Assembly (NCBI GenBank): GCA_015680905.1
Contig: CM027381.1
Coordinates: 88,561,501 to 88,625,500, forward strand
Origin: Coptis chinensis
Lineage: Eukaryota; Streptophyta; Magnoliopsida; Ranunculales; Ranunculaceae
Length of the DNA: 64,000 bases
Direction of reading: 5' to 3'
The notes beneath the pieces were generated by a model, which saw nothing but the letters and a program-made list of their open reading frames with translations, was not told the origin of the DNA and did not search any database. The translations under genes and the position numbers were made by a program. Below are positions 6,893 to 58,430 of this stretch, in pieces; the first letter of the stretch is position 1, and the number at the start of each line of letters is the position of its first letter.

Positions 6893-7215
6893 GGGTCGTA
6901 AAAGCACTGGTCTTTGATGTATGATTCAGTACCAGTATAATTTTCTTGTCTGATAAGATTAAGCACTAGACATATCACATAAGCCAACTGGTGAACAATG
7001 TCATCATATATATGAACCAGAAGTGGTGTTGAACCACTAGTTAGTCCCTGTCACGAGTGGTTTGATGTTAGAATTGAACCGATATGGGTCGTAGATGTAT
7101 GATTCAGTACCAGTATAATTTTCTTATCTTGAAAAGATTTAGGACTAGACAGATGAACAATTTCATCATAAATATGAACCAGAAGTGGTGTGTTCAGGTC
7201 ATGAGTGGTTTGATG
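6893..7215. repeat. Imperfect tandem duplication, period about 193 bp
   Basis: The block starting GGGTCGTA at 6893 recurs at 7086. Both contain ATGATTCAGTACCAGTATAA and GAACCAGAAGTGGTGT and end in TGAGTGGTTTGATGTTAGAA-like sequence. The second copy is shorter through internal deletions. Non-coding. Confidence 0.8.
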
Positions 7216-8455
7216 TTAGAACTGAACTGGTAAAAGAATATGGAGCGAATTGAAAACGTACTAGGCATATAGGCCGAATTTGTTCCAAGTCCAAACAATT
7301 TGACATAGAACATAGAAGTCTCCAGCGATGAATTTCAGTTGTGCTCTTTGGCAAGGATGATCTAGACGTAATAGCAGTTCGATTCAAATCTTTAACCTTT
7401 CCGGATCTTCCTCTCAATTTTCAGTGATTTTTTATTGTTTTTAGGTGTTGAATTTGCATAGAAAATCTTGTGTCTTTATACATTTTCAACTATATAAAGA
7501 AATTCATCCAAGTTAGTGTCATAGACTCATAGTGTGCTTTTTTGAGTAGAAAATAATATTGAAATACTGAACAGACTGCATGTTAAGAGAATACCGTTCA
7601 GTTGAGTACGATTTTTTTTTTTCGATATTATTTTGTTGAGTACGATTTAAGAAATATGGGGTTGCCTTATTGGTGGTAGTTGATCTTATTGTCACATGTT
7701 TTAGTGGTGACACTATTCTAGAAATTCCATTGCATATATTGCACCAGCTTTTACGTAGGTTTGCTGCTCTCAAATCAGATTAGCTTCCCTCTGAAAGGAA
7801 CTACAGTGTAATTCATTAGTGAAGATTGACTGCTAATGTTACACTAAGTGCTCAGTGCTCAAAAGGATTAGTCCTGAGGATAATGAAAGATACTTTGAAA
7901 GTTGACACAAATGGAGATCTATCAGTGCACACAAAGATCATGTATTGCTTGCAGTTCCCCACAGCAGTGAATGTGGATATAACGTTTCAACTTCATTGTG
8001 AACTAGAATCTCTATCATCCATACATTATAGGAAGTCATGGAAGTACAACTCTTTCCCATTATATGAGGCTTATGAGCTGGTATATTTATTATCACAGTA
8101 CAACTCTTTCCATTATCCAAGTATATGCATCACTTCCAGTCTTCCACTGCCCATCTCAATGTCTATCATTCTCAACTTTTCCCATTGCATGAGCTGTGTT
8201 CCTTGGCCCATGGCCCCATAACGAAAAGTTGAATGAAATTGTACAGAATCCATGTACCCTCCGTAATTCTGTATTAAAATAGATGATGAAATGGGGTGGG
8301 TCATCAGCTTGGAAATTGAAATTTAAGGCCCATCTGTGCACGCTCAGGAGCGTGATATTTACACGTGTGTATGAATCAACGTTATGTAAAAGAAAATATA
8401 AAATCAATTTAATTAAAAGTAAAATAAATAAAAGAGAATGGAAGGGAATATTACC
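7216..8455. other. Intergenic, one unassigned reading frame
   Basis: A 131-codon open frame lies at 7826-8221 (+), but its product resembles no family I know and no splice or promoter context supports it. I do not call it a gene. Confidence 0.45.
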
Positions 8456-24699: not shown

Positions 24700-27600
24700 T
24701 GGGTTAGTGGAACAATCTTTTTTTAATGTCATGAAAGTAGATATTACGTGGTGACCCTTTTCGATCGTATGTTTGATGCCTTAGGCCTCATGTTAGTTTG
24801 ATAGAGCCTCTTCCGACAATTGTTGGTTTGGGCCTTTCATTGAGGACCGGGAAATGCAAAGAATGATTGGAAGTTGTTCGGGCGTCTCCAATCAGTTGCA
24901 TTTGATGTAGACGGGTAAGCCTCTGCAAAGCCATGATAAGATTTGTAATAAGCTACCCAGAAATTGAATTAGAGAAGCTGAAGATGAAGCTCAAATTTAC
25001 ATGTAAAATTGAGTTGCCTGTTCCTCGCATCAGTCTCTTATTTCAATTTAATATGTCCACGGATGACATTCCCACGTTTGATACTCTGTTCCAAGTTACA
25101 ACTAAGTTTTGCTGGTGTGCTGCATAATATTCAAGGCTCTCATATGTTTATGGAAAATTTAAAAGAGAACTGATTTCATGAATTAGTTAGTACCCCGGAT
25201 GTTGCAAAAATTGACAGTGTTAAAAATAAAAATCAAGTACATGTTTATCTGAGATGAGGCTGTTCTTGAGTTGTAAATGAAATGGGCTTGCAATACCTTT
25301 CTATATTTTGAGCCGTATTATAAGCCGGTTGTGCCTTGATGACAAGACCACATTTCATAGTCTTTACTTTTAGTCTTTTACTACATAAATATGAAGCATA
25401 AACCGTCTTGTAACTGCAAGGGATCAGACTCCGGTAGTAATTCTAGTTCTCCATTCTTCTGTTGTATATGGAGTTAAATAGTCAAGATGCAACTGAAGAA
25501 AAACGATGCCAGTGTTACTAGAGTACAAAACCACAAGCGATCAAATTTCAAGAAATATGAGATCATAAATTCTAAGTTTTCACAGTTTTGCATCTGAACT
25601 TGTAAACATATCAGTTTATCAATATTATACCAACATATAAATCAAAATTATGCACCGAACGTTCAGGCATGAACCGTGATATAATCCCATAAAATCTAGC
25701 ATGAACAACTTACTAATCAAAGACAGCCACTCAGGCCAAAAGCTACAGACATGAAACAGCAATTAGTTCTATTGTTTGTTTATATCAATGTAGGGACTGT
25801 TAGAATTCAGCTGTACATAATACTACGCTATATCTCCATCTACTATTTAGCTAGAAGCGAAAACAAAGTCCTCAATCAGAGCCACTGTAGCCAAGTATGG
25901 CAAGAAAGAGGTTAATGATGTCAAGATAGAGCGAAACTGCAGCCACAACATATTCATCATAGGAGAAGCGCTTGATTAGATTATATGTGTCAAAAATGAT
26001 AAATCCTGAGAATACGATGGCGCCCAGAGCTCCCCAGATCATATGTGAGACTTTCCCTAGGGGGAACCAGATCTGCAAGGAACCAAACAGATAACAGTTA
26101 GAACACAGGAGTAAAACACGATCTGAATTCTCGTTATATCAGGGAAATTAGATAATAGAGAGGTCAACAAATTTGAATGTTCCGAAGTACCTGAATGATG
26201 CCAAAGACAATAAGCACCATGAGAGAACAGAACAAAATCGGACCAAGGAAACTAAAATCACGCTCCTTCTTTGCAGCCCAGAAAGTGTAAAGAGTTAGGC
26301 TTATGACTACCACCGTTGTCAGAATCACAGATTCCAAAACTATCCTCCCTGTATGTTATGAAGACATAAAAAGTTATTACAGCAGAAAAATTAACAATGA
26401 GAAGGAAAACACATAGAAAAGAGAAGAGGTAATCATTTGTGGATCCAAAATTCTCATAACAAAGAATCTTCAATACAGAAATGTGGTAGTATGCAACTCA
26501 TTTACCAGTCTTCAGAAGAGAAGCACTCGTCTTTTTAGATGAAACTTAACCTAGACCTCTGCTTCACTAATCAATAGTCATTATAAAACTAAATGACAGC
26601 ATAGTTATCACTGTAAAGGTAGAAAAATCATCCCAAGACAAGAACCATATGCAATTCCAATCAACCTAATACCTAACGCTGACTTGGATTGTACATTTGT
26701 ACGCTATAATTGGAAGACAAAGTTGCTCTAAAAAGAAAACGCCTCACCACGAAAATTAGAGAAAAGGTTGGATATTTTCCTGGTAATGGTTTGTGAATGT
26801 TAAGGGATACAAAAGAAGGGGGGGAAATTTGCATTACAAATTGGTCATGTATGCACATATAAACAGTGCCTATACAAGAGTTCTTTTATACTCACCATTG
26901 TTGTTCTACAATCATTTGGTAACCAGGAAATACATTTGAAACGGCTAAAAGAGTCTACCATAAAGCTTGATATTGCAATTATCGATCCCTTCTTACAACA
27001 TCATTACAGACATTCTTCATTCTTGAATAAGGGGGTAAACGGTCTAGTTTTTAATAATTAATTGCATCCAATGGATTCCTTTGGCTAAAGTTTTTACTAA
27101 AACATCTAATTCTTACTCTATACTGTGGCTCGTAGTATAAAAACTCAGAAGCATAAACAATAGAATATGTCGACATCCTAACTCTCAAGAGTCACGACAC
27201 TGTGTTCTACTTCACTGTCCAAATTTAACATTGCCATTTTCTTTAAAATACACGTACAATCCCTATCATTCTCTTAAGAGGCAATCACACACTTTCGACT
27301 CCATTCTTAACCATACTTCAATTAGCTTCAATCTTTTTGTTAAAGAGAACACGTACGACCAAAATTCCTTCCATGTAAAAACAGAAATATAGGCAACATA
27401 TAAAGAATTACAAATATATATATCTAACACAGTATATAAAGAATTCTATAAATTTAACCTTTGGAAAAGGCACAAGACACCCCAACAGAACAAGATATCG
27501 CAACAGTAAACAGTGCAAGAAGAATGAAGTTCCATGGATGCTTATTCTTAAAATGGTGCAATGGCCACAACACTGCAAAACAAATAAAATAATATTAAGA

Positions 27601-28215
27601 ACAAGACATGAGTCTAATTGTCTAAACATACTATTAACATTAAAAATGTACTAGTACTACTTACGGATAAATGGGACAATAAGGATAGCAATGTAAACAC
27701 CAAAACCAGCCCAACTAGACACCAAGAAATTTGGAATAGGACGAACAAACACAACAGCAGCAGCCACAGCAACAGTACAAAGTAATTGAACAGTCAATAT
27801 TGTGTAAACCTTCCTAATAAATGCCCATCGTAGTTTTGGGTCTTCAATCATGTTTGGGTAAAGTTGTCCATTACTAGTCCCTGTTTCTATGTCATTTTTA
27901 CCATACTTATGTGCTTTAGACATTGTTTCCATTGAAAAATAATAATTCCTAGGGTTTTTCTATGAGTTGGTGGAGAGTAAAAAAGTGGGTTGGTTTACCG
28001 TGACATGTTGTGTATATAGTTAGGGAGAGATGTGATGTGATGTGAAGATTTGAGAAAGAAAAGATATTTAACACGGTGAAATTTTGCTGGTTACGTGCCA
28101 TGCCATTTCGTATCGTTTTGGCGTTTACTACGTTTTAGGAAAGTTTAGGTGAGCAAGCTTTATTGAGGGGGTTTCTATTTTCGGTTATGGAGGAAGCTTC
28201 ATGGAAATTGACTAG
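24700..28215. repeat. Segmental duplication, copy 1 (LIFEGUARD-like block)
   Basis: This block aligns by eye with 48115-51890. Matching landmarks are a TTAGTGGAACAATC-like left edge, a GTAAGCC..GCA.AGCCATGA segment, the TTGCTGGTGTGCTGCATAAT segment downstream of the gene, all four exons, and a GGGGGTTTCT.TTTTCGGTTATGG segment upstream of the gene. Introns and flanks are clearly diverged, so the duplication is not recent. Limits are approximate. Confidence 0.8.
25872..27932 (-). CDS. LIFEGUARD / Bax-inhibitor-1-like membrane protein, copy 1
   Basis: Four exons on the minus strand: 27932-27665, 27572-27459, 26348-26191 and 26072-25872, all GT-AG, giving 741 nt and 246 residues. The N-terminus carries LYPNMIEDPKLRWAFIRKVY, the plant LFG signature before the first membrane segment. 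About seven hydrophobic segments follow. The last exon has DTYNLIKRFSYDEY and VSLYLDIINLFL with two conserved aspartates (about D208 and D231), placed like the calcium/pH-sensing pair of the TMBIM family. Known role of the family: ER or Golgi membrane proteins that restrain cell death and affect calcium handling. The C-terminus reads AILGYSGSD rather than the usual ALLTLLRAAD-type ending of copy 2. I chose the METMSK start; an internal MSK start three codons later is equally possible. Confidence 0.92.
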
Positions 28216-28729: not shown

Positions 28730-29416
28730 GGGGTGCCTATTGACACCCTCATAAATAGGACTAGCACCCATTTGGTAAAAAATAAAACAATAATGGTTAT
28801 TTCTTATATGTCTTTTTACACCCCACATACCCATAGTTCTATTGCAGGCCGTTGCCGCGAGATCTTATATCCCATGGCAGGCAGTTGCCGCGACATTTTT
28901 TTTTTCGTGTTTTTTGTTTTTTTTCACTTCAAATTTTGCGTATTGAACACATATGACATATATATGGTAATATGGATATCTCATTTTCTTCTTTAAAGTT
29001 TCTTTATACACTCCAAAAACAACACCAAAACCATGACAAAAAAAAATATACAATCGAGTCATAATTTTGCTATTTTGCGGCAAATATTTTCATATGCTAT
29101 AAGAAAATTTTGTGATCAGATTAATGAAGAAGAGTTTTGATAATTAACACAAGCAAAAACCCATTTTAGTAAACAAAATCATCTCGTGGCAACTAATTTT
29201 TTTTACGATGACTATTAAAAAAAAAGGACCCACGACAACCACCTTCCGTGGGATATGGAATCTCGTGACAATCCGATGCCGTGGATTATGCGATCCCGCG
29301 ACAGCTGCTTGCCGTTAGTATTTTTTGTGTATTTAATGGAGGGGTGCTAGTACATTTGAATTGGTCAAATGGGTGTTAGTCCCATTTATGGAGGTGTCAA
29401 TACCGCGGCCCTACCC
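28730..29416. mobile_element. Non-autonomous Mutator-like element (MULE-MITE)
   Basis: A 687-bp element between perfect 9-bp direct repeats TTCTAAAAT (28721-28729 and 29417-29425), the target size of Mutator-like elements. Its ends are long imperfect inverted repeats: left TATTGACACCCTCATAAATA and, from the complement of the right end, TATTGACACCTCCATAAATG, both leading into ACCCATTTG. The right tip has 6 extra bases. The middle has repeated GGCAGTTGCCGCGA-like words. No transposase. The perfect target repeat suggests a fairly recent insertion. Confidence 0.88.
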
Positions 29417-36830: not shown

Positions 36831-38674
36831 TTTGCTATCTTCTCTTGTTCATCTGGGCCTTTCTACTAATGAGAGGACCTAAATGAAATTTGCTGGTAAG
36901 TGACATCGTGTATGTGCCAAATGTTCATCCATCAAACCTCAATGACATCAAACCCCTTAACTGTATTTCAGTGAGTGAGAAATTAACGATGAAAAGTCAA
37001 ATGTAGAACGTGAAGAGCAAATGAAATCCCAGGACAGGACCTTCTTCCTGAGCCAAAAGGTATCAATTCAAAATGCTAACCTCTTACATCTACATCCATG
37101 TGACTCGTGATAAATCTCTCTGGTTGAAACTCTAAAGGATCTAACCACACTTGTGGGTCTCGCTATAGCTTCCAAAGGTTCACTATCATAGTTGTGCCTG
37201 ACGAGATTCTGTAACCACCTATTGTGCAGTCTTCCATGGACTAATGAGGTACTGACAGTGGAAAAGGGAGGGGGGAGGGGGGGGGGGGGGAGGGAACCTT
37301 AAATTTTCCTTCACAATGGCACGAAGATAAAGTAGATTATGAATATCTGATTCGTTAACATGTCTTCCTTTGCCCAAGTCCCAAAATATCGCCGATATAT
37401 CCGATATATCTCGGTAAATTGGTACACCGATATCAATATTTCTGATATATATCCACAGAATATTGAACCATTTTTTTTCGATATATATCGGAATTTTCGA
37501 TATGAAACTTTATATCGCCGATATAATCGATATTTACGATATAATCGATATATATTGGTTGACTTTTTGACCATTTTTTAATATAAATCCGATATTTCTA
37601 ATATATTTCCGATATGTTTTCGATATTTCCGATATATCCGATATTTCCAATATTTTAAATAGTTTGGACTGGTCACCAAAAAAATAGATATATCTGATAT
37701 ATATCTGTTTTTGGGTACACCAATATATTCATCGATATCGATATTTTGGGCCTTGCTTTTGCCAATGTGAGCATCCAACTCATCCCGAGCTTTTCTTAGC
37801 ACATGGCGATTATTCACCAGCAAAGATAGGACCCAAGTTAGGGTGATCACGGTTGTGTCCGTACCACCTAGAACCATATCCTACATAAAATCTGAAACCC
37901 ATCAAGTAAATTGAATATTCCATGTCGGAAAATATCCAGAGAACTTAATTTGTTGTCATACTAAGATAAGAAACCAAACAATAATGCTAATAAGAAACTT
38001 GTAAATGATTTTTGTTGTTTGCTCAGTTACCAAACTTAATTTCTACATAACAGGATTGTATCGAAATTGAATGATCATGATATTGACTTGACTGCAATCG
38101 TAATTCCATCTGCAAAACTTAAGTAAATTTGTCTAAAATTGTCTGGTTTAGCAATTCTTACCTGGCATGTAGCCTTGATGATGGTATCGTGGTCGTAGCC
38201 ACGAAACTCCATACCTTCTAAATTGGAAATCATCACATCAATAAAATCTTCGTGATCTCCAACATATGCAGAAAGTTTTCTCTGTCGATGCTCCTGCACC
38301 CAACTTCTGAACACAGAGTCAAGATCTCTAGCAGTAGATTTCATGGCTCCCTTGTACCCTCCATAATTAATCCACTGAAGAAATGGAAATGCTTCCATGG
38401 CGTGAGACCACCCAAAAAGATAAAGACATTGACTCAGTGCTTTCTGGAACCACTGCATCTCATTCTTGTCCCCGACCCCTGCTGAGCCAACATATCGTTT
38501 CCCAATCATCATCATGACCACTACATTGAATGTAAGGTCTTCAAACCATTTCTTCATCTCTACTATAACTGGTCGTACTTCAACGACTTTGTTACTCTTA
38601 CAAATAAGTTTGTATAAGTCTTTGATGCAAATGTCCACCTCAGTTGTTCGCACATGTTTCAGATATAGGTATCA
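36830..38674 (-). pseudogene. CYP82-like cytochrome P450 pseudogene
   Basis: Minus strand. The 5' part is lost: homology starts at LKHVRTTEVDICIKDLY (38674) without the membrane anchor. Exon 1 ends TIIKATCQ at 38162, a GT-AG intron follows, and exon 2 starts at 37880 with the I-helix [10 protein letters not shown]. After a 381-bp hAT insertion, exon 2 resumes with NESDIHNLLYLRAIVKE (K-helix ETLR-type region, here ENLR), then MEDCTIGGY, DPLEFQPERF and an intact heme motif [10 protein letters not shown] near 37024-37060. At least three in-frame stops (after VPH, after NLWKL and after DVRG) and a G/C homopolymer expansion near 37263-37291 disrupt it. The tail is hard to follow past 36900. CYP82 enzymes are ER-bound monooxygenases of specialised metabolism; this copy cannot make one. 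Confidence 0.9.
37375..37755. mobile_element. hAT-type MITE inside CYP82 exon 2
   Basis: A 381-bp element made almost entirely of CGATAT/CCGATAT-like words. Its tips are CAAGTCCCAAAATATCG (left) and CAAGGCCCAAAATATCG (complement of the right end). Flanks CCTTTGCC (37367-37374) and CTTTTGCC (37756-37763) form an 8-bp target duplication with one mismatch, as in hAT insertions. The P450 sequence runs DELDAHIGK up to one side and resumes GRHVNESDIHN on the other, so the element split an exon. Confidence 0.85.
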
Positions 38675-39297
38675 TTAGCAACCCCAGTTGCTTAATAAAT
38701 GATTTTAGTTCTTGATTGGATTAGTTACAAACAATGCGAAACCACAATGGTGGTTATCTTTCAGTGTCTATTCTAGAGCTTGTGTTTCTCGACATAAAAA
38801 GATTCTCGGAGTCCTGACCAAACCTCTCTACAGAGACTAACCCTCGTTCAATCAATTTAGGAAAATCATTAATTCATTTACATTTCCTAAGTCCCAACAA
38901 CTCTAGACAGGATAAATCGCTAAGAAAAGCACAACTCCAAAAAATAGTAAGGGTTCATTTCTATAATGTTGAGCACGCGCACAAATCCTTAAGTAAATAG
39001 AAAAACAGATGCACCCACTTTTCTTCATTCCAATACATATAATGCTTACCCAAATTAAAAGAAGATCTCAATCATCTGATGTTGATACCGACGTGATTGA
39101 TAGCAATTTAATATATTAAGCTTGTGTCTTGTGAGGGCAAGAAAACTAATGGTGCCATTCAAAAACCAGGAGAAGAAAGAATTTTTTATATTTTCACATA
39201 TCTAAGAATTGGTGGGTTTGGGAGATGGAGAGAGAAGGGTGAGAGATGATGGACCATTTTTTTTTTTGAGATGGAGAGAAACCCTTGGTCAATCGGT
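38675..39297. other. Intergenic, no feature seen
   Basis: The lost 5' part of the P450 would be expected here but I cannot find it. Only AT-rich spacer is visible. Confidence 0.4.
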
Positions 39298-40363
39298 ATT
39301 AATGGAAATTAAAGGGTAATTAAGTTGCTAATTAAATAGCTAATTAATTATATTTATTGTGCGTACAATTCAAAATAGAGGTGTGGATTTGAAATTTTAA
39401 TCAACCACCACCTGGAATGACCAATTACTCCCATTCAAATGTGTTAAACAATATTTTAATTTAAGGACAAAATCGGTACATTAAATTTGCAAAGGGCGAA
39501 AAAGATGAAGCAGCCCTTCTAAATATTATATGAGTGTTTTTTTTATTAAAGTATTCATCCATGGGTATTATGTGTAAGAAAAATGCCCTGATAAATTTAA
39601 GGGTCCATGATAGTTATAGGTATTACTACTAGTAGAGATATTAATGGAAATTAAAAGGTAATTAAGTTGCTAATTAAATAGCTAATTAATTATATTTATT
39701 GTGCGTACAATTCAAAATAGAGGCGTGGATTTGAAATTTTAATCAACCACCACATGGAATGACCAATTACTCTCATTCAAAGGTGTTAAGCAATACTTTA
39801 ATTTAAGAAACCACCACATGGAATGACCAATTACTCCCATTCAAAGGTGTTAAACAATACTTTAATTTAAGGACAAAATCAGTACATTAAATTTGCAAAG
39901 GGCAAAAAAGACGAAGCAGCCCTTCTAAATATTATATGAGTGTTTTTTATTAAAGTATTCATCCAGGGATATTATGTGTAAGAAAAATACCCGGATGAAT
40001 TTAAGGTCCATGACAGTTATAGGTATTACTACTAGTAGAGATATTAATGGAAATTAAAAGGTAATTAAGTTGCTAATTAAATAGCTAATTAATTATATTT
40101 ATTGTGTGTACAATTCAAAATAGAGGCGTGGATTTGAAATTTTAACCAACCACCACATGGAATGACCAATTACTCCCATTCAAAGGTGTTAAATAATATT
40201 TTAATTTAAGGACAAAATCGGTACATTAAATTTGCAAAGGGCGAAAAAGACGAACCAGCCCTTCTAAATATTATGAGTGTTTTTTATTAAAATATTCATC
40301 CAGGGGTATTATGCGTAAGAAAAATACCCGGATGAATTTAAGGGTCCATGATAGTTATAGGTA
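39298..40363 (-). repeat. Tandem array of three Helitron 5'-end segments
   Basis: Units start (plus strand) with ATTAATGGAAATTAAA at 39298, 39640 and 40043. The middle one is longer because about 60 bp (ATGGAATGACCAATTACTCC region) is duplicated inside it. Read on the minus strand, the units at 39298 and 39640 begin A|TCTCTACTAGTAGTAATACC, the canonical Helitron 5' consensus TCTMTACTA. The unit next to 40363 lacks these first bases and is joined directly to the CTAG end of the neighbouring Helitron. No unit has its own 3' hairpin, so these are repeated 5' ends rather than whole elements. Confidence 0.75.
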
Positions 40364-40854
40364 CTAGCAAAATACACGTGCTCTGCACATGAACAATACA
40401 CAAAACTTATTGAAGAGAATGTGAACATAGTTATCAAGAGGAAACAGAAATGAATCTAACAACAACATCTACTGAATTGAACCAGCTTTGTTAAGTAGTT
40501 GTAGCCTTTTCTATAACAAATTATATATTTATTTGACAGAATACTTGGTACAGTTGTTGGCCTTTTATCTACCTGGTACATTTCAAATTCATTATAATAC
40601 ATACAAAAAGTATGCCTTTGGCACTCAGGTTGTCAGGTTGATACATAATCTATGCTAATTCACGAGGGGTAGTCGGTGAGTGGAAGTGAAAATAGCGCTT
40701 ATGCCTCGTGAGAAACTTCCCCGAGAAGATTCCCCGCAAGTTATTCATTTGTATGTAGCTACTCGGTCAGATTGTGAGACTTGAGATCCATCAATTTGTG
40801 CCTCTTAACCAACCTTGCAAGTGAAAGCAAGATGCATATACCAAAATCAAGCTA

Positions 40855-41775
40855 CCCCAGTTTCTCTTGAGTCGCTTTTCCCCTTGTTGTTGATCATATC
40901 CTCAAGTTCCTTAGCTTCGGTTGGTGATACCATTGCTAGCATAAGCTTTGATCATGGTGTCTGTAGGTAATTACATGCGGCTTTACAACCTCTCTCTATC
41001 ATCATTTTCGATGCCTCTTTCATCTCTGTGAGGCAACCCATTAAGCCCATATGCATCAAGCGGACAATTGAAAAATGTAGTATCTAACGTTACATCCGAA
41101 GTTCTCAATGAACCTTAATACGCTTCCAATCTTCAATTCTCTGCAGATCCCGCTCCCATATGCCTTTTACAAGCGAGCTCAACGTGATGCGGTTGGGTTT
41201 GATTTTCTCACCGCATCAACTGAACAGTACTCCATCCGCCCGGATCCCCAAATTCTCTCGAATGCATCACATTGTAGGTCACAATTGTCCATGAGAAGTA
41301 GTACTTCTGCATGTACTCCATCACAACACTCATTTTCTCATAGCTCCCAGCCTTCCCATAGGAATACAAAAGTATATTGAATGTCTTAATGTCAGGACAG
41401 ATACCAGAGTTCTGGAACTTCTCGTAACAACTCTCCATTGTTTCGATCTGCCCACTGCCACCGAAGGCTCTTAGTGTTGTGTTCATGGTCCATACATCAG
41501 GCTCACATTCCCGCTCACGGAGCATCTCCATGAGTGTTGATTCCATCTCCCCATATATTTTAACAAAATAAACAACAAAATCAATACACCGAATCACTTG
41601 AACTTTAAGAAAGCAAAAAGCTCGAGACTACACAGACTAATACAAAAGATAAAAAAAAACAAAGAATCCTGCCAGGATACTTGCCTGCTCGTCCATAGGC
41701 ATCAATGAGAGTGTTATATGTCACATTGCTAGGCTTAATTCCTTGATCTGCCATATCAGACAACAGAGTTTTCCC
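40855..41775 (-). pseudogene. Pentatricopeptide repeat (PPR) gene fragment
   Basis: Minus strand. ADQGIKPSNVTYNTLIDAYG (about 41750-41693) and, after a gap of about 100 bp, MESTLMEMLRERECEPDVWT, TLRAFGGSGQIETMESCYEK and CPDIKTFNILLYSYGKAGSY (41560-41300) are clean P-class PPR repeats. They resemble the At5g48730/EMB2750 type of organelle RNA-binding PPR. After about 41240 the similarity continues (LSSLVK, FFNCPLDAYGL, KELEDMINNKGKSDSRETG) but in changing frames, so it is dead. The N-terminal transit peptide and early repeats are missing. It lies in the Helitron, which probably captured it. Confidence 0.8.
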
Positions 41776-43620
41776 TCGATATTATGATAACCACATATCA
41801 CTTTTACAACTTTCATTTGTATTCCAACCAATGGAAAAAAAATATAAATAAAATATAGCTTTGGCGAGTATTAGATTCAAAGAACTTAATTATACGAATA
41901 ATAAACACAATAGTAAACATACTAAATTCATGAAAAAGCGAAAAGGGTTTATTTTTTTTTGCATACTGGAACTACATTTTTCTCATACTCGTATACTCAT
42001 TCAGCAAAAACAAAAACAAAAACAAAAATCATAATTTGGAAATGAATAGTGGAGTGGAGGTGTGTCTTGTGAAATTTAAAGAGATTTCATGAGCAGTTGG
42101 TTCTTAACTGCTTCCACTTCTGACCCAGATTTAACACAAAGCCTATTGGTATTACAATGTTCACCATATTTTTTTGACTAACAAATTCATCTCACGATTT
42201 ACATATCTGGAAAAGTGGAATTCATAACACAATCAATTTCGAACAATTAAGACTAATTCCAATTCACTAAGACCAAGGTTAAGAGCTAATAAAATTAATT
42301 ATACATTCAAATCGTATAGCTTAGCCGCTTCCCACAACTGCGTTTCACGCCTCTCAAATATATAGCCAGATTTTATAACTTAAAAGCTTGCTTAATCAAC
42401 AGCTTCCTCAGTTATAAAAGTAATTTCGACCAGTGTATTCCCATCCTCATCTAAAACATCACCTCCTTTGATACTAAAAGTAATATAAGGTCCGTTAAGG
42501 ATATGCATATAAGCAAGCACACATAGGCTAATCTAGATTCCTCCGCGACAGGCCATACGTGCTAGGACAATTCTAGTGAACTGTACTTCTTCACCTTATA
42601 CTTGACATAATACCAAAGTTGCAACTTAATTACAACAATCCTTTACCTTTTTTGCATACAAACAACATAAGTAAAATCTTAATTGTAAAAGCGCATATAA
42701 CCGATAGATACTAGTAGCCTATGTTCAAGTAAGTACCCCGTTGGTACATGAATCCATGTAAAAGAATGTTGAAATCCAAACTAATCCCCTAGTAAAAAAT
42801 AGAGAAATGAAGCTAATCTTGAAATGCAAGCCAATTCACCCATACTAATTAACAACTCTTAGTATGACAGGACTGATTGACTACCCATTCCAATTGATTA
42901 ACCAAAAAAACTCTTATTGTGTTAGTAGGCCGGTCACATGCATGTTAGTATGGGAATGGAGAAAAAATGACCTTGCATGACTATTGTGGATCCAATCATG
43001 TGCAGAAAAGAATTCAGCAACCGGTGTACATGAAAAGCGACACCATTTGGTTCTGCTAGTATGCATACCACAAGTTGTTTTACAGGTGATGCTACAGACA
43101 ATATTGTGTTCATTTGAAATGACATATAAGGAAGTCAGGATGACTGATAATGCTATTTACTCCTTCCATGTAGTGTGACACATGAAACCTTATTAAAATT
43201 TTGATAACGGTGTATAAAAATAGATAGAAAGACATATGAGTGCCAAATTCATAGGACAGTACATTATAATACAAAATTCATAGTACTATCCTCAAAATGT
43301 AAACTTAACACAACGATTATAGAACAAAAAATATTAAAGTAGAACAAACATAAACATCAAATAAGCATTTAATCAAATAGTTCGTGATTACCAACATAAA
43401 TTCCAAAAAAACTATATACAAAAGGCTACGCAACAATTTGGTGTGTGGAAATTTATTTTTGCCTAAAGTGAACAGTAAAAGTTAAACTGGTGATTACAAA
43501 AAAAAAAAAAAAGCTAACACATTTAACTAACTGAAATGGTCAGTAGTATCTCAACAACATATGTTGAAAGACCAAAAATTCAATAAAAAAATAGAAATAA
43601 TTTAGGCAGAAGACCGTACC
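41776..43620. other. Helitron interior, no gene recognised
   Basis: AT-rich DNA between captured fragments. A short AAAAAC repeat lies near 42003-42025. No coding resemblance. Confidence 0.4.
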
Positions 43621-43622
43621 TT

Positions 43623-43998
43623 TGCATTTGAAATGAGAAGTTGCAAATTGCACTTGATGAGACAGTAGTAACCTGAAATTGGAACAATCCTTGAAATGAA
43701 TATTCGAAGTGTAAACCGTAAAAAAGGAAAAATCAAAACATAAATTATATGATTATTTATAACACAATTAAAGTTAACCAGAAAAGAGAATAACTTGCGT
43801 ACCTTATGGATTTATCATACGGTAAGTAGGGTGATCTCGATCTTTCATTGTGTAGTGATCCCTACTCTTCCTTATCTTTATCTTTATTAAGTTTGAGTGA
43901 TTGACTGACTATAAACTGTAATAGTACATCATCAAGCGCATGATTTATTTCAAGATTGAACCTTATTTTGTGTCTAGCGTTTGGCTCTCCCAAAAATC
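43623..43998 (-). other. Possible captured exons of an unidentified gene
   Basis: On the minus strand a segment bounded by TTTCAG and AAAG|GTACGG (about 43673-43622) reads YYCLIKCNLQLLISNAK. Another segment begins after TTTCAG near 43997 and reads FLGEPNARHKIRFNLEINHA, continuing to KLNKDKDKEE before a stop, then SLHNERSRSPYLP. The splice-like edges and protein-like composition suggest exons, but I cannot name a family and the order is uncertain. Confidence 0.3.
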
Positions 43999-44119
43999 TG
44001 AAATCAACTCACCAAGGTGAATAATCAGTTGCATTCACGAAATAAAAACTAAATAATCATATGGAATATTGAAAAGAGGAGAGCAACCCTTCGTTGGTGA
44101 GAGCGAAGTTTAAGGTCTT

Positions 44120-44345
44120 TTCGTTTTTTTTAACGGCTAATAAATTAAATTGCTTAATTAAATGCCTAATTAAATGCATTTATGGTGGTGTACAATTGAA
44201 ATAATGGCGTGGTTTTTGATTTTTTTTATTCACCAGCACATGAAATGACCAATTACTCCTAATTAAAGTACTAACCAATAGTTTCATTTAAGGACAATAT
44301 GGGTACCATATATTAACAAAAGCAGAAAAAGACCAAGGCATACCA
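44120..44345 (-). repeat. Internal copy of Helitron 5'-region sequence
   Basis: This stretch resembles the unit repeated at 39298-40363. Shared words are CTTAATTAAATG/CTAATTAAATAG, TGTACAATT, AAATGACCAATTACTCC and ATTTAAGGACAA. It is more diverged than the array units and has no clear ends of its own, so it may be a nested or earlier relative. Confidence 0.6.
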
Positions 44346-45815
44346 CACATATTCTTAAAGAGAAAGAAGAAAGTATTTGCAATTTGACAGAAACCATAAA
44401 CACACACCAATCAATGGTATGCAAAGCACTGGGCACAAATAAAAACACCATTCGATTCATTTGTTGAGCGCCTAGCTTCTACTAAAGCCCTTTTCCACCT
44501 TATACCATTTTGTTTCTAATTTGACTTAAACAAATAAAGTAGCGATTAAGCAAAAATATATTGAACTATCATTTACCATCAGTAACAACTATGCTATGGA
44601 AAAGGGAGTAGTAGATACTCTAAACCAAGCCCCAAAGAAAATGAAGACAATGATAGGCTATAAGTTTCTCAAAAACCAACTTCGTGTTAGGATCATTTTA
44701 AGTATATCGCAGCTGCAAGATTATTGTAAAGGAAAGTTCGTTCATAAATCAATACAAAATATAACTATATCTGGAAATTAACATTATTGCAACACACCAT
44801 AAAATAGATTTATTGATTTGTAATTGAATAACCATAGTCTTTTCTAATTGATGCATCATTGAGCTGTGACCGTAGATGCCAAAAGCATAAACAAATTTCA
44901 CATTACACATTACACATTGATATAACCAAGAGCATAGACAAATTTCACATTGCACATTGATATGATCAATAACATAGTAAAGGCCAAGTGTTATATATCC
45001 TATGTGGTAGGCCAAGAAATGGCTTTGAAAGGGCTTTTAGGTGAATCACTCCAAGTGAATTTATAACCTTCCTTGAACTCAAACCACCATCGTCAATCAA
45101 TTTTTTTGATTACCAAGCATCAATACTTTATTATCTTAAATACCATGTTGCCATTGACACTCTCAGTATAATGAATGATAACTATATCGATGAAAATCAG
45201 ATAGAAAAAAGAATAGAAATAGGCAACTACTGAAATACAACCCAAAGGTGGACCAATAAGACTACTGTGAACACCAACCGTGGAATTACATATTTACTCT
45301 TATCTGAAATTCAATTTACTGATTGTATTCCGTTTTGGGTATTGTAATATCAAGAAAATGATGAGGAAAAAATTGGGAAAAAAAATGTCAATGTAGTGTA
45401 AAAAACACAGTTGGTGGAGGAATTATTTAAATAGAAGTAAGATTATAATAAGTTATAATATGTCTTTACAATCAAGATAAAAAGCCCCTTAATATAGTAC
45501 TTGCAATTTCTTTCGAAATAAATAAAAATTTATGTAATGAGTGATAAAGAAATTTATTGTAAGAACGAAAAAAAAATGCATAGAAAGACTTCGTTAAACA
45601 CAATATGATTATATGACATCCTTTATCAATTGCCATTTCAGTCAATAGTCATACCAAGAAAAAAAAAACTACAGAAAAATGCCATGTTTTTAACCCATGT
45701 AATGAATAAACCTAGAACATGCACATCAGTTTTATCATTGAGTTACGAACTGCATTGGAACTAAAGAACCAAGAAATAAGAAACTTGATTAATAAGTTAT
45801 AAAACAACAGCTTAC
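44346..45815. other. Helitron interior, no gene recognised
   Basis: AT-rich. A short imperfect tandem repeat of the CACATTGCACATTGATATGA kind lies at about 44898-44965. Otherwise nothing identifiable. Confidence 0.4.
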
Positions 45816-46186
45816 CACAAGCGGGAATAGGAGAACCAACATGACCAGATAACGTATCAGCCTCGTCCATTGAGCTTATAACACAACTAGTTTCAGTCAT
45901 TCCATATCCTTCAAGAATGCTACAACCAAAGCATCTGGGAAGCTATTCATAAAGTTAATTATGAAACAACAAATACTCCAAGTGATCAAAGGTGGAAAAA
46001 ATATATTAGATGCATGTATGTATTCTGAGTAAATTTGCATTAACTTACACCCTCAAAAAGTCCATGACGTCAGGAGACAAAGGCGCAGAGCCCGAAATCA
46101 TACATCGGAGTATCGGACCCTTCCACCTAACTTTGCCCTTATCTTATTGAATACCAATCTGTCCCACATAGGAGATGGTTTCTTAC
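45816..46186 (-). pseudogene. Two exons of a LACS6/7-type long-chain acyl-CoA synthetase
   Basis: Exon a (46186-46049) reads KPSPMWDRLVFNKIRAKLGG and then, after an 8-bp tandem insertion that shifts the frame, MISGSAPLSPDVMDFLRV. A GT-AG intron follows. Exon b (45934-45816) reads GYGMTETSCVISSMDEAD and HVGSPIPAC. GYGMTET is the ATP/AMP-binding motif A5 of the ANL superfamily, and the context is closest to peroxisomal LACS6/7, which activate fatty acids for beta-oxidation. All other exons are absent. The fragment keeps its splice sites and lies inside the Helitron in the element's sense, so capture is likely. Confidence 0.85.
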
Positions 46187-46695
46187 CTGAAATAAAATGT
46201 GTAATAACAACTTAATTAGTTTCAATTTCCAAACGAGATCTTGCCGCATTTAGAATACATGTCTAAAGCAATAATATCTTAACAATAAAAATGTGGGGAT
46301 GAGTTATCGACAGAAAAGTTCAGAACCAAATAATTATAACATGTATAAGAGCACGGATGTCAAATTGACTGCATGTTTGAAATTTTATGCTGAATTAGTT
46401 TATTTTGCAAGGGAAGGAACAAAAAAGAAAATGATACGTCAACATGACCTTTTAAGTTTAAATCACAAACGAGAGAAACAAATAAAATCATACACAAAGC
46501 AAAATGACCTCATTAAACCGCAAGACCTCATTTTATGAAACGACTAGTCAAACAAATCAAAATTTATATAGGCTAATTGATGAGAATGAGAAGTATATCT
46601 CCACATTCACAGAATTGGCATTCAATTATAAACACATACACAAATCTGATGCGACTGAAATCTACAACTTAAAAAATGAATATTTGGTATTATCA

Positions 46696-46766
46696 GATAA
46701 ATGTACTATCTTTGATTGCCGAAAGAAACCCAATCGAGGAACGAGTCTCAAGGATATCCGTTTAGA
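46696..46766. repeat. Direct repeat, left copy (partner 47559-47632)
   Basis: GATAAATGTACTATCTTTGA and AAGAAACCCAATC...AGTCTCAAGGATATCCG recur at 47559-47632 with a few small indels. The copies are about 860 bp apart in the same orientation and bracket a GC-richer segment. Confidence 0.85.
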
Positions 46767-46818
46767 TTTATGTAAGGTAATTTTAAAAGTTTTAGCAAGT
46801 AACTTACACACGGCTTGA

Positions 46819-47250
46819 GTGACTCTTCTTTTTTATCCGGTGAGACAAATTGACTTCGGTTTAACAAGCTTTGTTTTTTCATGTGTATCCGGGCCCGGGA
46901 ACCTTCAAATGAAATTCTTTGGTGCCCTAACAGTCTTGTTTGTGGTTCCCGCAGAACCTACACGATTTGGAACGAGCTTACTACATTGTCACGATCCCGG
47001 ATCCATGAAGTTATCACTCCCCTTTGCGAATTGGCAACCCGTTGGTTGTAAGGGGTTCCCGGCGATAAATCCATGACAAATGGTTTTGCGTAAACAAAGA
47101 ATGGGGAACATTTCCTTTGAACCTTGAACAATCCCCCTTTCGTGGCTTGGGCTCCGTCATGCTCCGGATCACTTCCTTCTTTGACCATTCCCATCCCAGT
47201 GTCCATCCCGGGGCTTGAATGTGACGATATTTTTCGGAAGTTAAATATCA
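46819..47250. other. GC-richer segment with overlapping opposite reading frames
   Basis: This stretch has visibly higher G+C than its surroundings. It holds an 85-codon open frame on + (46819-47076) and a 97-codon frame on - (47251-46958), for example with PGTPYNQRVANSQRG. I recognise neither. An organelle-derived insert or a relic of a different repeat are both possible. Confidence 0.3.
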
Positions 47251-48368
47251 TAACAACAACTTCGTCGATTACAATTCAATGTTATCGATCGATCTGCATA
47301 AATCGACTACTTCAAAATTCTAAATAATGATATATGGATAACTCTCAAAACTCCCAACTCCACAAGAAAGACTTCAAATAGAATTTGAAACAAAGGGAGA
47401 GGACATAAAACCAACAATTGAGATCTATTTACTCGGCTATATGCCTTTATCAAATTTCAATTTCTGCAAAGTTAGATGTAACTGGAAACTAAAGCAAAAA
47501 CGAAGATAAGAATTAATAGGATGATAATAAGAAAGAAGAAAAGCAGACGGAAAGACTTGATAAATGTACTATCTTTGATTGCCAGAAGAAACCCAATCAG
47601 AGGAACAGAGTCTCAAGGATATCCGGATTTAGTGTTTGGAAACAAAAAGGCCTACCTGAATAGTCTTGACTGAAGGCTTGGTTGAGACGTTCGATTACTT
47701 GTGGGAGAACTCAATTGGAAGAGAGAGAACGATGGCTGATATTATTTCATTTTCTGTTTGCAAAAGAGGGGAAGTCGTAAAGTGGAAGAGAGACGAATTG
47801 GTTTTTCGATTTTAATTTCATAGAAGGTATTTATTTGGACAATGAATGTTGGGTAAGTCGCGAACAATTGAATAGGGGCGTATAGTTGATTTTTCACCTA
47901 AATTTACACATACGTCCTTAAGTTACTATATAATCTTAAGGATATAAATGATAGTAAAATTTGAAATGACTAAGTAGTCCTTCTTAAAGGCATTGAATAA
48001 TTGATTTTAATATTTTATGAAGGGTATTTCATGGTAGAAAAAAGGTTGGTCTATTTTAAATGTCCATGTTAATTATGGTATACTCTACTAATTGAGATTA
48101 CTACTAGTAGAGATTAGTTTAGTGAGAACAATCCCTTTTTAATGTCACAAATTCACAATTTGTAGATATTACAAGGTGGTCTTTTTCTTTTTTTCTGTAT
48201 GATGCTTATCGTGGGCTGTGGGCCTTTTATTATGGTTCTTGCCAATATGGGAGACGTCTCCACTTGATTGTTGGTATAATTGGTAAGCCCTGTGCAGAGC
48301 CATGAGAAAATCTAGTCTGTGACTTTAAAAGCTAGTAATGAGCTTAGCTAAGAAGTTGAATTAAAGAC

Positions 48369-49135: not shown

Positions 49136-50048
49136 TTAAAGACTAAGAAATGATCTAAGGAGTTAAATTAGACTTCAGTTGCTTGTTCCTCACATCCATC
49201 CCTTATTTTAGTTTTAATTAGTGTGCAGTTGACATCCCCGAACGTTTAGATATACTCTGTTATACTAAGATTTGCTGGTGTGCTGCATAATGCCCAAGGA
49301 TCTCGCATGTAGAGGGAACGAGAATCAAACTGGACGTCCGAATTGATGAATTAGTGTCTTATGTACCTCTGAGTGTGTTAAACCAAGTACACGTATGTCT
49401 AAGAAGAGGCTGCTCTTGAGGTATATATGTGAATGCATGCATTGCGATACTATATTTTGCACTGCATTGTAAGATGGTTGTGCCTTGATGACAAGAGTTT
49501 ACTTTTATTGCATAACAATTTATCAAACATAGCGTCTTGTAAATCAAAAGATCAGACTCTGACAGTAATCCTAGTTCTCCATTCTTCTTCTGTATATGGA
49601 GTTGAAAAATCCAGATACAACTGAAGAAAAACGATGCTATTAGCCTATTACAGTACAAAATTATAAATGCGGCCAAATTTCAAGATATATGACCTCTATG
49701 GCTCTATCGAGTTTTCATAGTACGGAAACATCAAATTCTACAAGAAATAGGTATAGAAAGTATAGAAAGTAACCAGCTAATCTAAGATCAGCTTACCAAT
49801 GTTTCAACAGAAACTGACATGTGAGTCAAATTATGCACTGGACATTGTGACATGATAAACTCCGATAAAGTTTTGTATCAACAACTTAAGTCAAAATATG
49901 CAGACTCGACACAGCGATTGGTTCTATAGTTTGTTTTTATATCAACGTAGAGGAATGTTAGAATTCGATCAGCTGCGACAACAAAACATATATGATACTA
50001 TACTATACAATATCTCCGTCTATCTGGCTAAAAGCAAAAACAAGGTCT

Positions 50049-51626
50049 TTAATCAGCCGCTCTCAAGAGGGTAAGTAGAGCAAGAAAGAGATTGATGATG
50101 TCAAGATAGAGTGAAACTGCAGCTATAACATATTCATCATAGGAGAAGCGTTTGATTAGATTATCTGTGTCATAAATGATATATCCTGAGAATATTATTG
50201 CCCCCAGAGCTCCCCATATCATCGTTGAGACTTTCCCTAATGGGAACAAGATCTGCAAGAAATCAAACAAATTAAAAAATACATTAGTAAAACATACTAT
50301 CCAAATTGTCGTTATATCAGGGGAAATTAGACAATGGAAAGGTCCTTTAGTAGAATGTTCCCAAGTACCTGAATGAAGCCAAAGACAATAAGCACTAGAA
50401 GAGAGCAGAACAGAATCGGGCCAAGGAAACTGAAATCACGCCCCTTCTTTGCAGCCCAGAAAGTGTAAAGAGTTAGGCTTATGGCAACCACTGTCGTCAG
50501 AATCGCAGCTTCCAAAATTATCTTCCCTGTGTTTGGTGGAGACATAAAAAGTTATTACTGTGCAGTAATTAACAACAAGAAGGGAAAGAAAAAAGAACAC
50601 AGAAGAGGTAATCATTTGTGAATCCAACTTCCCATAACAAACATTCTGAAATGTGGTATATGCAAGTCTGCAACTCATTTGCCAGTCTTCATAAGAGAAG
50701 CACTCTTCCTTTAGGATGAAACTTATCCTAGACCTCTGCTTCACTAATCAACTAATCAATAGTCATTTTAAAACCAAATGTAATTGTTCTCTTACTTATA
50801 TCGTAATTATCACTGTAAAGGTAGAAGAATTATCCGAAGACACAAGAAAGTGAGAAACAAAGACACACCACGCCTATTATGTTACCCTGCCTGACCACAT
50901 CAGAAAAATAGGCAACATATACATTACAAATATCGATCTAAAGCATTCATTATTACTTCAATGCACTTCTATTTCTTCTAACATTACTTACCTAACAATA
51001 TGAAAGCATGAAGACGAATAAATAATAACCATAAATTTTGTTATTCTTCAAAGCAACACCAAACTTTGTTACAAGTTTTCTTCTAAATTATAGTATTTAT
51101 ACTTAACAAATATAATAAATGAAACCCCACAAAATCTTTTTTCACCAAAAAAAACTAAAGAAAATTTAAAACTCACCTTTGGTAAATGCGCACGATAATC
51201 CAACAACAAAAGATATCGCCACCGTAAACAGAGCAAGGAGAACAAGATTCCATGGATGCTTCTTATGAAAATAGTGCAATGGCAACAACACTGCAAATTA
51301 TTTCCAACAAACCAAATAAAAATAAAAATATGGATATGATTATATTATATTAAAACAATGTACTACTCCAACTTACGGATTAATGGGACGAGAATGATGA
51401 CAATGTATACAGCCAAACCAAAGCGACTGGACACAAAGAAATGCGAAATGGGACGAACGTAAACAACGACAGAAGCCACGGCAACAGTAAGAAGGAGTTG
51501 AAGAGTCAATATGGCGTAAATCTTCCTAATGAATGCCCATCGAAGTTGTGGGTCCTCAATCATGTTCGGGTAAAGTTGTCCATTATTAAACCCTGTTTCA
51601 ATGTCGTTTTTTCCGAATCTTACCAT
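50049..51626 (-). CDS. LIFEGUARD / Bax-inhibitor-1-like membrane protein, copy 2
   Basis: Four exons on the minus strand: 51626-51377, 51290-51177, 50526-50369 and 50252-50049, all GT-AG with the same phases as copy 1, giving 726 nt and 241 residues. It contains LYPNMIEDPQLRWAFIRKIY, a seven-segment hydrophobic core, then DTDNLIKRFSYDEY and VSLYLDIINLFLALLTLLR with aspartates at about 202 and 225. The C-terminus ends LLRAAD, the usual form in the family. The frame is open throughout, so it is probably functional. It differs from copy 1 at many residues and in its first residues (MVRFGK). A promoter TATA box was not identified with confidence. Confidence 0.92.
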
Positions 51627-52112
51627 TTTTGCAGAACTTTGTAATATTTTCCTAGGATCTTCTGTTTTTTTTTTTTTTTTATGATTGGAATTTGGAAAGT
51701 TTGTTGGAAGGAAAAAAAAAGGGTTGGTTTGAGTGTTGTGAGGTTTCGAGAAAGAAAAGATACATACGCGGAGTTATTTTACGTGACGTTACGGCATCCG
51801 ACATTTTAGGGAAGTTTTGTAGTAGGGGGTTTCTGTTTTCGGTTATGGGCGAAAGATTCGTGCGGAAATTTGGTTGTTGGGTTTTGGCAGTTTGAGTTTT
51901 GCGGGAATTTACTTGGGTTAGGCCTACATTTTCGACAACCCAAACCTTAAGCCTTATCAAGTTGGGCCTCCGAAGCAAGCCTTGTTGCTAACCTCATTAA
52001 AAGCAGGCATCAATGCCGGATGTTCTTATGCATCCGACATACTAGTAGATGTCGAAAGGACCGTATCATTTCTCTGAAATTTACCTGGTCTTTAGGTTGA
52101 TCGATATGCAAG

Positions 52113-55100
52113 CAGGGGCGGCTCAAGGCTATTCGGGGCCCTAAGCAAAGTTCGAATAGGGGGCCTTCTACAATTAATACCAATAAAAATTGTTTATAAC
52201 TTATTGCTTTATTTATGTTATTTCATCATATGAGTGCAAACCCTCATTCTTTATCCGGGCTTGGGACCGGCAATGCATTATCAAAATACTTTGGCGGATT
52301 TAAAAGTTGTTGTTTTTTTTTTTTTTTTATGCGAAGAAATTTTTACATGTCACAAACTTCAATTAAATTTCATTTTTCTTACTTTTTGAGCTGCAAAATC
52401 ACTAATTAAATCTTTGTATTTAAGTTCTTCTAGAAAATCTCTTTCTATAGATAATGTAGCTAATCCACTCAATCTTTCTTGTGACATGGTTGATCTTAAG
52501 TAAGATTTAATTAACTTTAGTTTTGAAAAACTCCTTTATGCTGAAGCAACGGTTACAGGTACTGTCAACAATATTCTATAAGCTATATAAGCATTTGGAA
52601 AAGATTGTATTCTTTTTAGATAGTTCAATATTTTAATTGCAGATTCATTTTTGGTATATAAAATTTCTCTTAGTAGTCTTAATTCTAAAAACAAATCTGT
52701 ACCATCAATATCACAACTCTCTCCATGTTTCAGAAAACTTTCAAGATTAAGACAATATTCTTTTAACCTATCATCATCTATTGATTTCAATTTTTTCACG
52801 TCAAATAAAAATCCGAACGTTTCTTCAAAACTTTTTAACTGTTCAAATCTATTATTAAAAGATGATATCGCTTGATCAATTATATATAAGAAAAAATTAG
52901 TTCTAAATGACTCTTCAGGTGTTTGAGTTACTTCATTGTCAACATTCTCATCAAATTGTCTCTTTCTCCGAATTACACGTTTTTCACGAAATACCGATTC
53001 TATATCCATTTGACGTGCAATATCCATGGATGCTATTTTAGCTTTTTCAAATCCTTCTTCTATGTACTTTTTAAAAAATGTGATTAGACCTTTTATTTGA
53101 TTTATAGCCATGTCAATGGGCATATCTTTAGATTGTAAATCCTTACTAACCAAATTCACAGTAGCTAATATATCATACCAAATAACCATTCCAAACAAAA
53201 ACTCATAATTTTCTAAATCATGCAATGCTAGACTTTCGGCTTCACTCTTTGTTTTTGGATCCTCGCTAATTTTTGCTAGCTCAAGTAGAGCATCCCTAAT
53301 TTCTGGCGCTTGAGTAATCAATGCTTTAACACTCTCAACTCGACTTTCCCAACGTGTTGGTGACAAAGTCTTCATCGTATATTTAGTTAAATACTTACAT
53401 AAAATATCCCATCGTTTTGTAGAGGAAGAAAACAAACAATAAATACGTTGCAAAATTCCAAAAAATGATATTGCCTTTGAACAAGAATTCGCCATATCAC
53501 ATAATACTAAGTTAAGACTATGACATCCACATGGAGAGTAAAATGCTCTAGGATTTATATCTAACAATCTTTTTTGGACGCCTTGATTTTTACCTTTCAT
53601 ATTTGATCCATTATCATACCCTTGACCTCTTATGTCGTTAAAATCTAATTTATATTCTTCTAAAATACATAATAGCTCATTAAAAAGTCCTTTACCCGAC
53701 GTGTCTTCTACTATTATAAAGTCTAGAAAATAATCTTCGATTCTTATGAGACTTGAGGAAACATCTACACAACGTAATATGACAGTCATTTGTTCTTGGT
53801 GACTAATATCAGGAGTGCAATCAAGTATAACAGAATAATATTTTGCTTCCTTAATTTTTAGAATAATTTTATTTTTTATTTCAGATGCCAACAATTGTAT
53901 CAATTCATTTTGTATATTGTGACTAAGATAGTGAACCTTTAATTTATCATGTTTGATACGCCGGAGATGTTATTGCATAATTGGGTCAAACTCTGCAATC
54001 ATTTCAATTAAGCTCAAAAACATACCATTATTAGCTTCATAAATTTTCTCATTCTTTCCACGAAATGCCATATTGTTTTTAGAAATTGTCTTAACAACAG
54101 CAATAATTCTTAGTAGTACATTACTCCAATGTTCTTTTTCCCTATCAATTTGCTCTTGGATATGCTTATCAATTGTTGTTTTGCTATTTAATCTTTAAAC
54201 TTAACTCATCCCAAAGTGTCAAATTATCAATATGACCCGATTAGAAAGTTCATGTTTTTTAAGTTTGGTACCAATATTTTGCCAATCATCAGTCCCTTCA
54301 CCGTTTAATTGAAATTGGGTGCAATTTGAGTTAAATAACTTGCAACAGAAACAAAAGACCTTATTACAATATTTTGAATATACTAACCAATTTCTATCAA
54401 ACTTCTCTCCATTTGGTGCTACTTGGGTATAAAATTTAGCTGAAAATTTTCTTTTTGTCTTCATATCAATAGGAAATTCTATGTCACTAACTCTAATTGG
54501 ACCCTTCTTAACTAACAAATCTCTTAGTTTTGTATCAATTTTACCCCATTGTCCAGGGTCATAAATATCTTGAACTAAAGAGTTGGATTGTTCATTGAGG
54601 TTCTCATCAATACTAACAAGCAAATCTTCTGTTGAGTTATCATTTCTTTCATTTGATTGATTTTCTTCAATGTTATCTTGAACAGAAACACTAGGAGCAA
54701 AATTTACATTAGGATCAGTATCAATGTGTTCTATATTTTCATTATTATCCACTTCTATTGGTTGGTCAGGTTGTTCATTTACTAAATTATCACTTGAACT
54801 AACCGATTCACTTTGTTTATAGTTTTTTATAAATTTAAAAATAGCTCCTCTTTGAGATTCAATCGCCTCATCTACTTTTCTCTTTTCTTGACGTTTTTGA
54901 TTACCGGATTTATACTTTCGGTTCATGTCAAAACAGTAAAATAATATGCAAGCAGCAAGCAATAAGCAATAAGTCCTCACATAGTCACATAACATACCAA
55001 AAAATAAAATAAAATGGAAACAATCACCGTGAGACGAAGCTTAATTGATAGGCGAAGTCGCGTTTGAAGTATAGAGTAAAAAAGTAGACAATCCACGAGA

Positions 55101-58399: not shown

Positions 58400-58430
58400 C
58401 TAGCCATTTGGCCCGGCCTATGGCCGGACT
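58400..58430 (-). mobile_element. Helitron-type 3' end beside chlorophyllase
   Basis: On the minus strand the sequence reads CCGGCC ATA GGCCGG (perfect 6-bp stem), then GCCAAATGG, then CTAG, then T. This is the hairpin-plus-CTRR structure of Helitron 3' ends and resembles the GGGCC..A..CTAG ends in the 17.6-18.5 kb array. The body would extend toward higher coordinates; I could not find its 5' end. Confidence 0.55.

Follow-up and report, generated by a model that had tools for sequence, protein, structure and literature searches.

A chimeric Helitron carrying COBRA, LACS-like and PPR gene pieces within the 5′ end of another Helitron in Coptis chinensis

The stretch analysed here, a 64,000-nt window of the Coptis chinensis genome (assembly GCA_015680905.1, contig CM027381.1, positions 88,561,501-88,625,500 of the forward strand), holds fragments of COBRA, LACS-like and PPR genes inside a Helitron that spans 48097-40364 and whose edges are confirmed by copies in the genome. 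This non-autonomous element is made up of conserved 5′ and 3′ ends, pieces resembling the body of another Helitron and the three gene pieces, and it has inserted into the 5′ terminus of a host element, itself a Helitron (Table 1). Taken as a whole, the locus is very probably best explained as a nested, non-autonomous chimeric Helitron with three captured gene pieces. Positions are those of the window unless given as el, the coordinates of the element on the minus strand (el 1 at 48097, el 7734 at 40364); copies were searched for in 935.6 Mb of the genome (116 contigs), and loci found there carry L numbers.

Table 1. Positions of the inserted Helitron, its parts and the host Helitron in the window
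Feature	Position	Strand	Evidence
Inserted Helitron, 7,734 bp, 5′ TC...CTAG 3′	40364..48097	-	Empty site in window and genome copies
Conserved 5′ terminal region, ~312 nt	47786..48097	-	226-313 nt common to six copies with other inner sequence
74-bp duplication, left copy	47559..47632	-	Single in L015, L033
COBRA fragment, 793 bp, decayed	46766..47558	-	Pfam PF04833, E 7.1e-14; L031 match
74-bp duplication, right copy, now 70 nt	46696..46765	-	Sequence comparison
LACS-like (AMP-binding) fragment, exons ~46186-46049 and ~45934-45816, with introns	45280..46525	-	Pfam, E 7.1e-17
Interior pieces resembling host-family Helitron	42639..44337	-	44337-44143, 75%; 43079-42639, 88-89%
PPR fragment, stops where conserved 3′ terminus starts	40443..41777	-	Pfam PPR_2, E 3.8e-26
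Conserved 79-nt 3′ terminus, hairpin 40391-40375, CTAG 40367-40364	40364..40442	-	20/20 fetched stretches
First 16 nt of host Helitron 5′ end (TCTCTACTAGTAGTAA), cut off by insertion	48098..48113	-	16-mer repeats at 40041, 39638
Host 5′ unit u1, rest after insertion	40042..40363	-	Joined to 48113-48098, matches u3 (323/338 aligned identical)
Host 5′ unit u2, 403 nt, contains internal 64-nt repeat	39639..40041	-	Sequence comparison
Host 5′ unit u3, 342 nt, runs on into host body	39297..39638	-	Sequence comparison
Cytochrome P450-like fragment downstream of host 5′ units	38000..38662	-	Frames extend to ~37222

Ends and insertion site of the element

Several hallmarks of a Helitron are found at this locus, namely a 5′ TC, a 3′ CTRR with a hairpin, an A|T target without duplication, and copies sharing both ends. 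On the minus strand the element begins with TCTCAATTAG at 48097, preceded by a host A (48098), and finishes with CATGTGC-AGA-GCACGTG-TATTTTG-CTAG up to 40364, followed by a host T (40363); the hairpin has a 7 bp stem and stands 11 nt from CTAG. Within the window, this hairpin and CTAGT site ranks 6 of 109 CTAGT sites (tied with two others) and, by hairpin energy, 10 of 480 CTRRT sites, so that the window by itself is no proof of the 3′ end. No second copy of the 3′ motif was found in the window at up to 3 mismatches, nor was there a comparable 3′ end elsewhere in it by alignment (next best score 8 vs 25).

The genome copies fix both edges. With the last 136 nt of the element less one (to 40365) as query, 40 of 133 candidate matches were scored, self included, and 40/40 run to the query end. 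Stretches were fetched around 20 of these; all 20 reach el 7734 and are followed by T after CTAG, with differing sequence outside, and 9 also match el 1, in keeping with the expectation that other copies would share both ends. The hairpin is partly lost in L013, which still ends in CTAG. The 20 stretches had only the element itself as reference, so that an overrun past its ends would not show; with the flanks added to the reference, the alignments of 7/7 non-self loci stop 1-9 nt beyond 40364. For the 5′ side, the query included 83 nt of flanking sequence (query 84 = 48097) and gave 652 candidates, 40 of them scored, self included, and the 39 non-self matches all start at query 72-89. In 9/9 fetched stretches holding the 5′ end, A precedes TC, the start reads TCTC(A/T), and the flanks differ. 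Six copies (L012, L016, L019, L020, L021 and L028) share 226-313 nt of the conserved 5′ region and have other sequence inward of it.

The sequence just outside the 5′ edge belongs to the host. The minus strand of the window has three occurrences of the 16-nt TCTCTACTAGTAGTAA (starts 48113, 40041 and 39638), and the plus strand has none. When 48113-48098 is joined to 40363 onward, the resulting 338 nt align with u3 as given in Table 1, the first 45 without a difference, and the rejoined u1 is identical to u2 at 327/337 aligned positions, apart from small gaps and the internal repeat of u2. Unit u1 lacks its first 16 nt and these stand at 48113-48098, hence the 7,734-bp element was inserted inside the host 5′ end. 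The window therefore holds its own empty site, as the rejoined flanks restore a host 5′ end that is present uninterrupted twice in the adjoining u2 and u3, and the comparison places the insertion between A and T with no target-site duplication.

The preliminary description of this DNA had proposed a single Helitron running from 48113 to 40364 with TCTCTACTAGTAGTAATCTC as its 5′ end, a reading that is now highly improbable. The TCTCTACTAG at 48113 is preceded by A and resembles a Helitron 5′ start, and TCTCTACTAGTAGTAA indeed stands there on the minus strand after an A. However, 48113 corresponds to query 68, outside the range in which the non-self matches begin, the 16 nt complete a host unit, and the TCTC(A/T) start at el 1 in all nine stretches with differing flanks refutes the proposal. 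The true edge is 48097, 16 nt further in, and the 16 nt are host sequence; the 3′ end put at 40364, with its hairpin and CTAG before T, is borne out by the genome copies. A convincing Helitron 5′ motif may thus belong to an adjoining element, and caution is called for. The outer 5′ flank CTCACTAAACTAA was also considered as a diverged host end, but 136 of 41,980 A-ending positions score at least as well, and the exact 16-nt solution superseded it.

A search with the host 5′ end (40 matches scored of 506 candidates) gave 39 non-self main rows; the start falls at query 60-64, corresponding to that end, in 28 of them and at other positions in 11. The host-family copies L035 and L036 have a single unit that starts A|TCTCTACTAGTAGTAATACC. 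The host Helitron in the window has three tandem 5′ units, each A|TCTC, at 39297-40363 plus 48098-48113; two unit starts side by side were seen at no other place among the matches listed (40 of 506 candidates). By blastn, the 5′ end of the inserted element is itself related to the host unit from position 1 onward, at 63% over 184 nt for u3 and 65% over 138 nt for u2.

Gene fragments and their likely donors

The three gene pieces all lie in the sense of the element. Five pieces of the element, taken from the frames with each break written as X, were given to Pfam; COBRA, LACS-like and PPR were matched (Table 1), two further element frames had no match, and no Rep/helicase domain was found in these five pieces, which do not cover every frame. 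The AMP-binding fragment is one that we take to be of LACS type. Compared with solved structures, it finds distant adenylate-forming enzymes only (best E 2.2e-6), and in a protein search it gave 24 matches, whose identity outside the family and L030 is 42-64%.

Each piece recurs in family copies and at a further locus that resembles a parental gene. The PPR piece has 10 places, comprising eight family copies (window, L009, L010 and L012-L016), L029 and one 69% relative; L029 (C4:107431836) matches el 6321-7655 at 90.8%, and upstream of the match the open PPR frame continues. The LACS-like piece has seven places, six of them family copies (window, L010, L013, L015, L016 and L033) and the other L030 (C2:77759726), which matches el 1573-2818 at 95.6% and has more LACS-like frames on either side. 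For COBRA there are also seven places, namely three family copies (window, L010 and L013), L031 and three partial places, in one of which (L032) the frames appear broken; L031 (C1:9799273) matches el 539-1332 at 92.7% and has an open frame of 173 aa (Pfam E 3.3e-62). The edges of homology thus fall at about el 539/1332, 1573/2818 and 6321/7655 for COBRA, LACS-like and PPR, respectively. Because the homology ends at each junction but the gene runs on beyond it, L031, L030 and L029 are, on sequence grounds, the likely donors of the three pieces.

That decayed PPR, LACS and COBRA genes were simply local, lying between chance look-alikes of Helitron motifs, has next to no probability. The decay of all three pieces would agree with it; however, the same chimera, with COBRA, LACS-like and PPR together, recurs at two further loci, L010 and L013, whose flanks are unrelated; the fragments are therefore no local genes, and the idea is refuted. 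What had been suggested before, a Helitron with captured PPR and LACS-like pieces in the element's own sense, is upheld by the Pfam matches and frames, the copies, the ends and the likely parental loci since located for both genes, although the count of two fragments missed the third, COBRA.

As judged from their sequences the three fragments are decaying. Against the likely donors and with introns included, indels in the window copy number 17 for COBRA (16 of them not a multiple of three), 12 for LACS-like (11) and 20 for PPR (19). The splice sites, described earlier as preserved, are so in part: three LACS-like sites are kept relative to the donor, whereas the presumed PPR acceptor is AG in the donor and AT in the window copy. 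A fourth LACS-like site, the acceptor of the first exon, is AG in the window, and the donor stretch for comparison was not located. Between 44143 and 43079 the interior holds a repeat with many matches in the genome. At 42712 the window copy lacks 147-184 nt held by five other copies, and L014 has about 2 kb there.

Mode of capture

How Helitrons take up genes is still argued, the models being read-through and filler DNA. This family has numerous copies, some differing from one another by exactly one piece, and a likely donor for each of three pieces, so that its junctions are able to separate the models. In the window, L010 and L013, a 74-bp stretch of element sequence stands on both sides of the COBRA piece, whereas L015 and L033 have no COBRA and a single copy of that stretch. 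This 74-bp sequence has matches of only 10-14 nt in the fetched donor stretches, and the matches at the junctions of the captured pieces are, by eye, very short only.

Capture by 3′ read-through, in which the end of the element is bypassed and no internal repair takes place, is improbable here. It has experimental proof for Helraiser (PMC4778049), and the PPR piece does abut the 3′ terminus at el 7655/7656. However, COBRA and the LACS-like piece are far from the 3′ end, the same 79-nt terminus is kept in 20 stretches, at the junction the likely PPR donor L029 lacks this terminus, and a 74-bp duplication flanks COBRA. The duplication at COBRA and the absence of a 3′ terminus on the donor side at PPR favour filler DNA over read-through.

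We therefore lean towards internal repair, in which the gene pieces would have entered through the mending of breaks within the element, the filler being copied from donor sequence. In the case of COBRA, the 74-bp duplication on either side would be the result of a staggered cut with its overhangs filled in, and later transposition would have spread the chimeras. That Helitron capture can proceed in this way, through the filling and patching of a staggered break inside the element, which leaves a long, target-like duplication (74 bp), is a possibility that we advance tentatively. If it is true, a likely donor and both the unfilled and filled states are present in one genome, and a capture step can be followed at the level of single bases and sought across the genome.

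A different history, in which the common ancestor already had the captured COBRA piece and recombination between the 74-bp repeats removed it from L015 and L033, is doubtful but has appreciable points in its favour. Recombination of this kind yields exactly the structure of L015 and L033, and COBRA has diverged from its donor no less than PPR has (substitutions of 5.6-7.0% and 3.7-6.7%, respectively, with 2.3-3.5% for LACS-like). Against the loss, the best tree separates the COBRA carriers from the other rows by a branch with support of 74/78, but this tree has eight rows, two of which fill only 20% of the columns, and leaves capture versus loss undecided.

Several observations weigh against the history of stepwise internal capture as we have given it. 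The divergences from the donors do not follow the ranking of the nested sets of copies (PPR in eight, LACS-like in six and COBRA in three), so that the order PPR, LACS-like, COBRA is not backed by them; together with the modest support for the branch that holds the COBRA carriers, this leaves room for a loss of COBRA in L015 and L033. As to its mobility, the element would, judging from its family, move by rolling-circle replication with Rep/helicase acting in trans, and here too a point stands against the reading: PF14214 has 157 matches in the genome, of which, among the matches listed, none was seen by eye in the 20 fetched stretches, and one PF14214 region (L034) has a weak match to one of these stretches, L024 (28% over 123 aa, E 1.1e-8), and none to the element. 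The PF14214 genome search and the L034 comparison thus identified no autonomous partner.

Divergence was also considered as a clock for the order of capture and was rejected, since the gene-derived stretches vary more between copies than the body. The COBRA- and PPR-derived stretches (46898-47497 and 40598-41497) differ by about 2-11% among copies and have many indels, and el 3001-6300 differs by 0.3-5.0%, mostly by less than 3%. The counts of C>T and G>A relative to the reverse are only mildly higher. L024, the stretch with the weak helicase match, has a 226-aa AAA/Clp-like open frame (L024:1903-2580, Pfam AAA_2 E 3.5e-54) about 1.6 kb before the family 3′ end, which is perhaps another captured gene.

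The element clearly exemplifies a process already known and is no new kind of system. In maize, Helitrons acquire gene fragments stepwise and have multiple termini by nesting (Dong et al. 2011, PMC3288121). The likeness extends to the TC...CTRR/CTAG ends, the hairpin, the A|T target, several gene fragments per element, relatives that differ by one fragment, and preferred insertion near or inside Helitrons, giving multiple termini. The species and the fragments are different, the likely donors, the fragment-less copies and the empty site in the window are available together in our case, and the excerpted maize account has no mention of a flanking duplication such as the 74 bp at COBRA (PMC3288121). 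The insect Hel1 likewise shows stepwise, internal acquisition with an order inferred from copies, explained by a filler DNA model with junction matches of 2-13 bp (PMC6544945); unlike Hel1, the present element is from a plant and carries gene exons with introns and a long flanking duplication, with junction matches that by eye are very short. With Helraiser (the bat Helibat1; PMC4778049, PMC5876387) it has in common distinct ends, a 3′ hairpin and an AT target without duplication. Helraiser differs in that it is autonomous and has been tested, and its read-through capture (PMC4778049) does not fit the COBRA and LACS-like pieces here.

Insertions accompanied by tandem duplication were reportedly attributed to break repair in plants by Vaughn and Bennetzen in 2014. 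The same idea is described in PMC8355091, and the inserted patch between duplicated flanks is alike, but in our case it lies within a multi-copy transposon. In the literature searched, as far as the excerpts go, no report was found of a long duplication flanking a gene piece captured by a Helitron, which does not prove that there is none.

Neighbouring features

The host Helitron has a gene piece of its own, a cytochrome P450-like fragment (Pfam p450 E 8.6e-05, slightly short of Pfam's own cut-off). Unit and P450-like piece occur together in three other host-family places, and C2:60971689 (96%) and C4:6413114 (95%) match the piece from 38662 on in a donor-like manner. By eye, the fragment (38662-37222) is broken at ~37740-37380 by a repeat-rich stretch. 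The 3′ end of the host was not found; homology to the host in two host-family copies stops near 39,000.

Elsewhere in the window, strong hairpins with CTAG|T at 11 nt spacing at 58400 and 18198 on the minus strand are possible Helitron 3′ ends. A duplicated gene pair on the minus strand (25400-27959 and 49400-51773), by eye of LIFEGUARD/BAX-inhibitor type, lies either side of the Helitron region, about 24 kb apart, with blocks that are 80-88% identical. At 28740-29405 the inverted ends GTATTGACACCTCC... and ...GGGTGTCAATAGGC mark what is, by eye, likely a small terminal inverted repeat element, and at 52539-55040, on the minus strand, long frames resemble a hAT-type transposase, again by eye.

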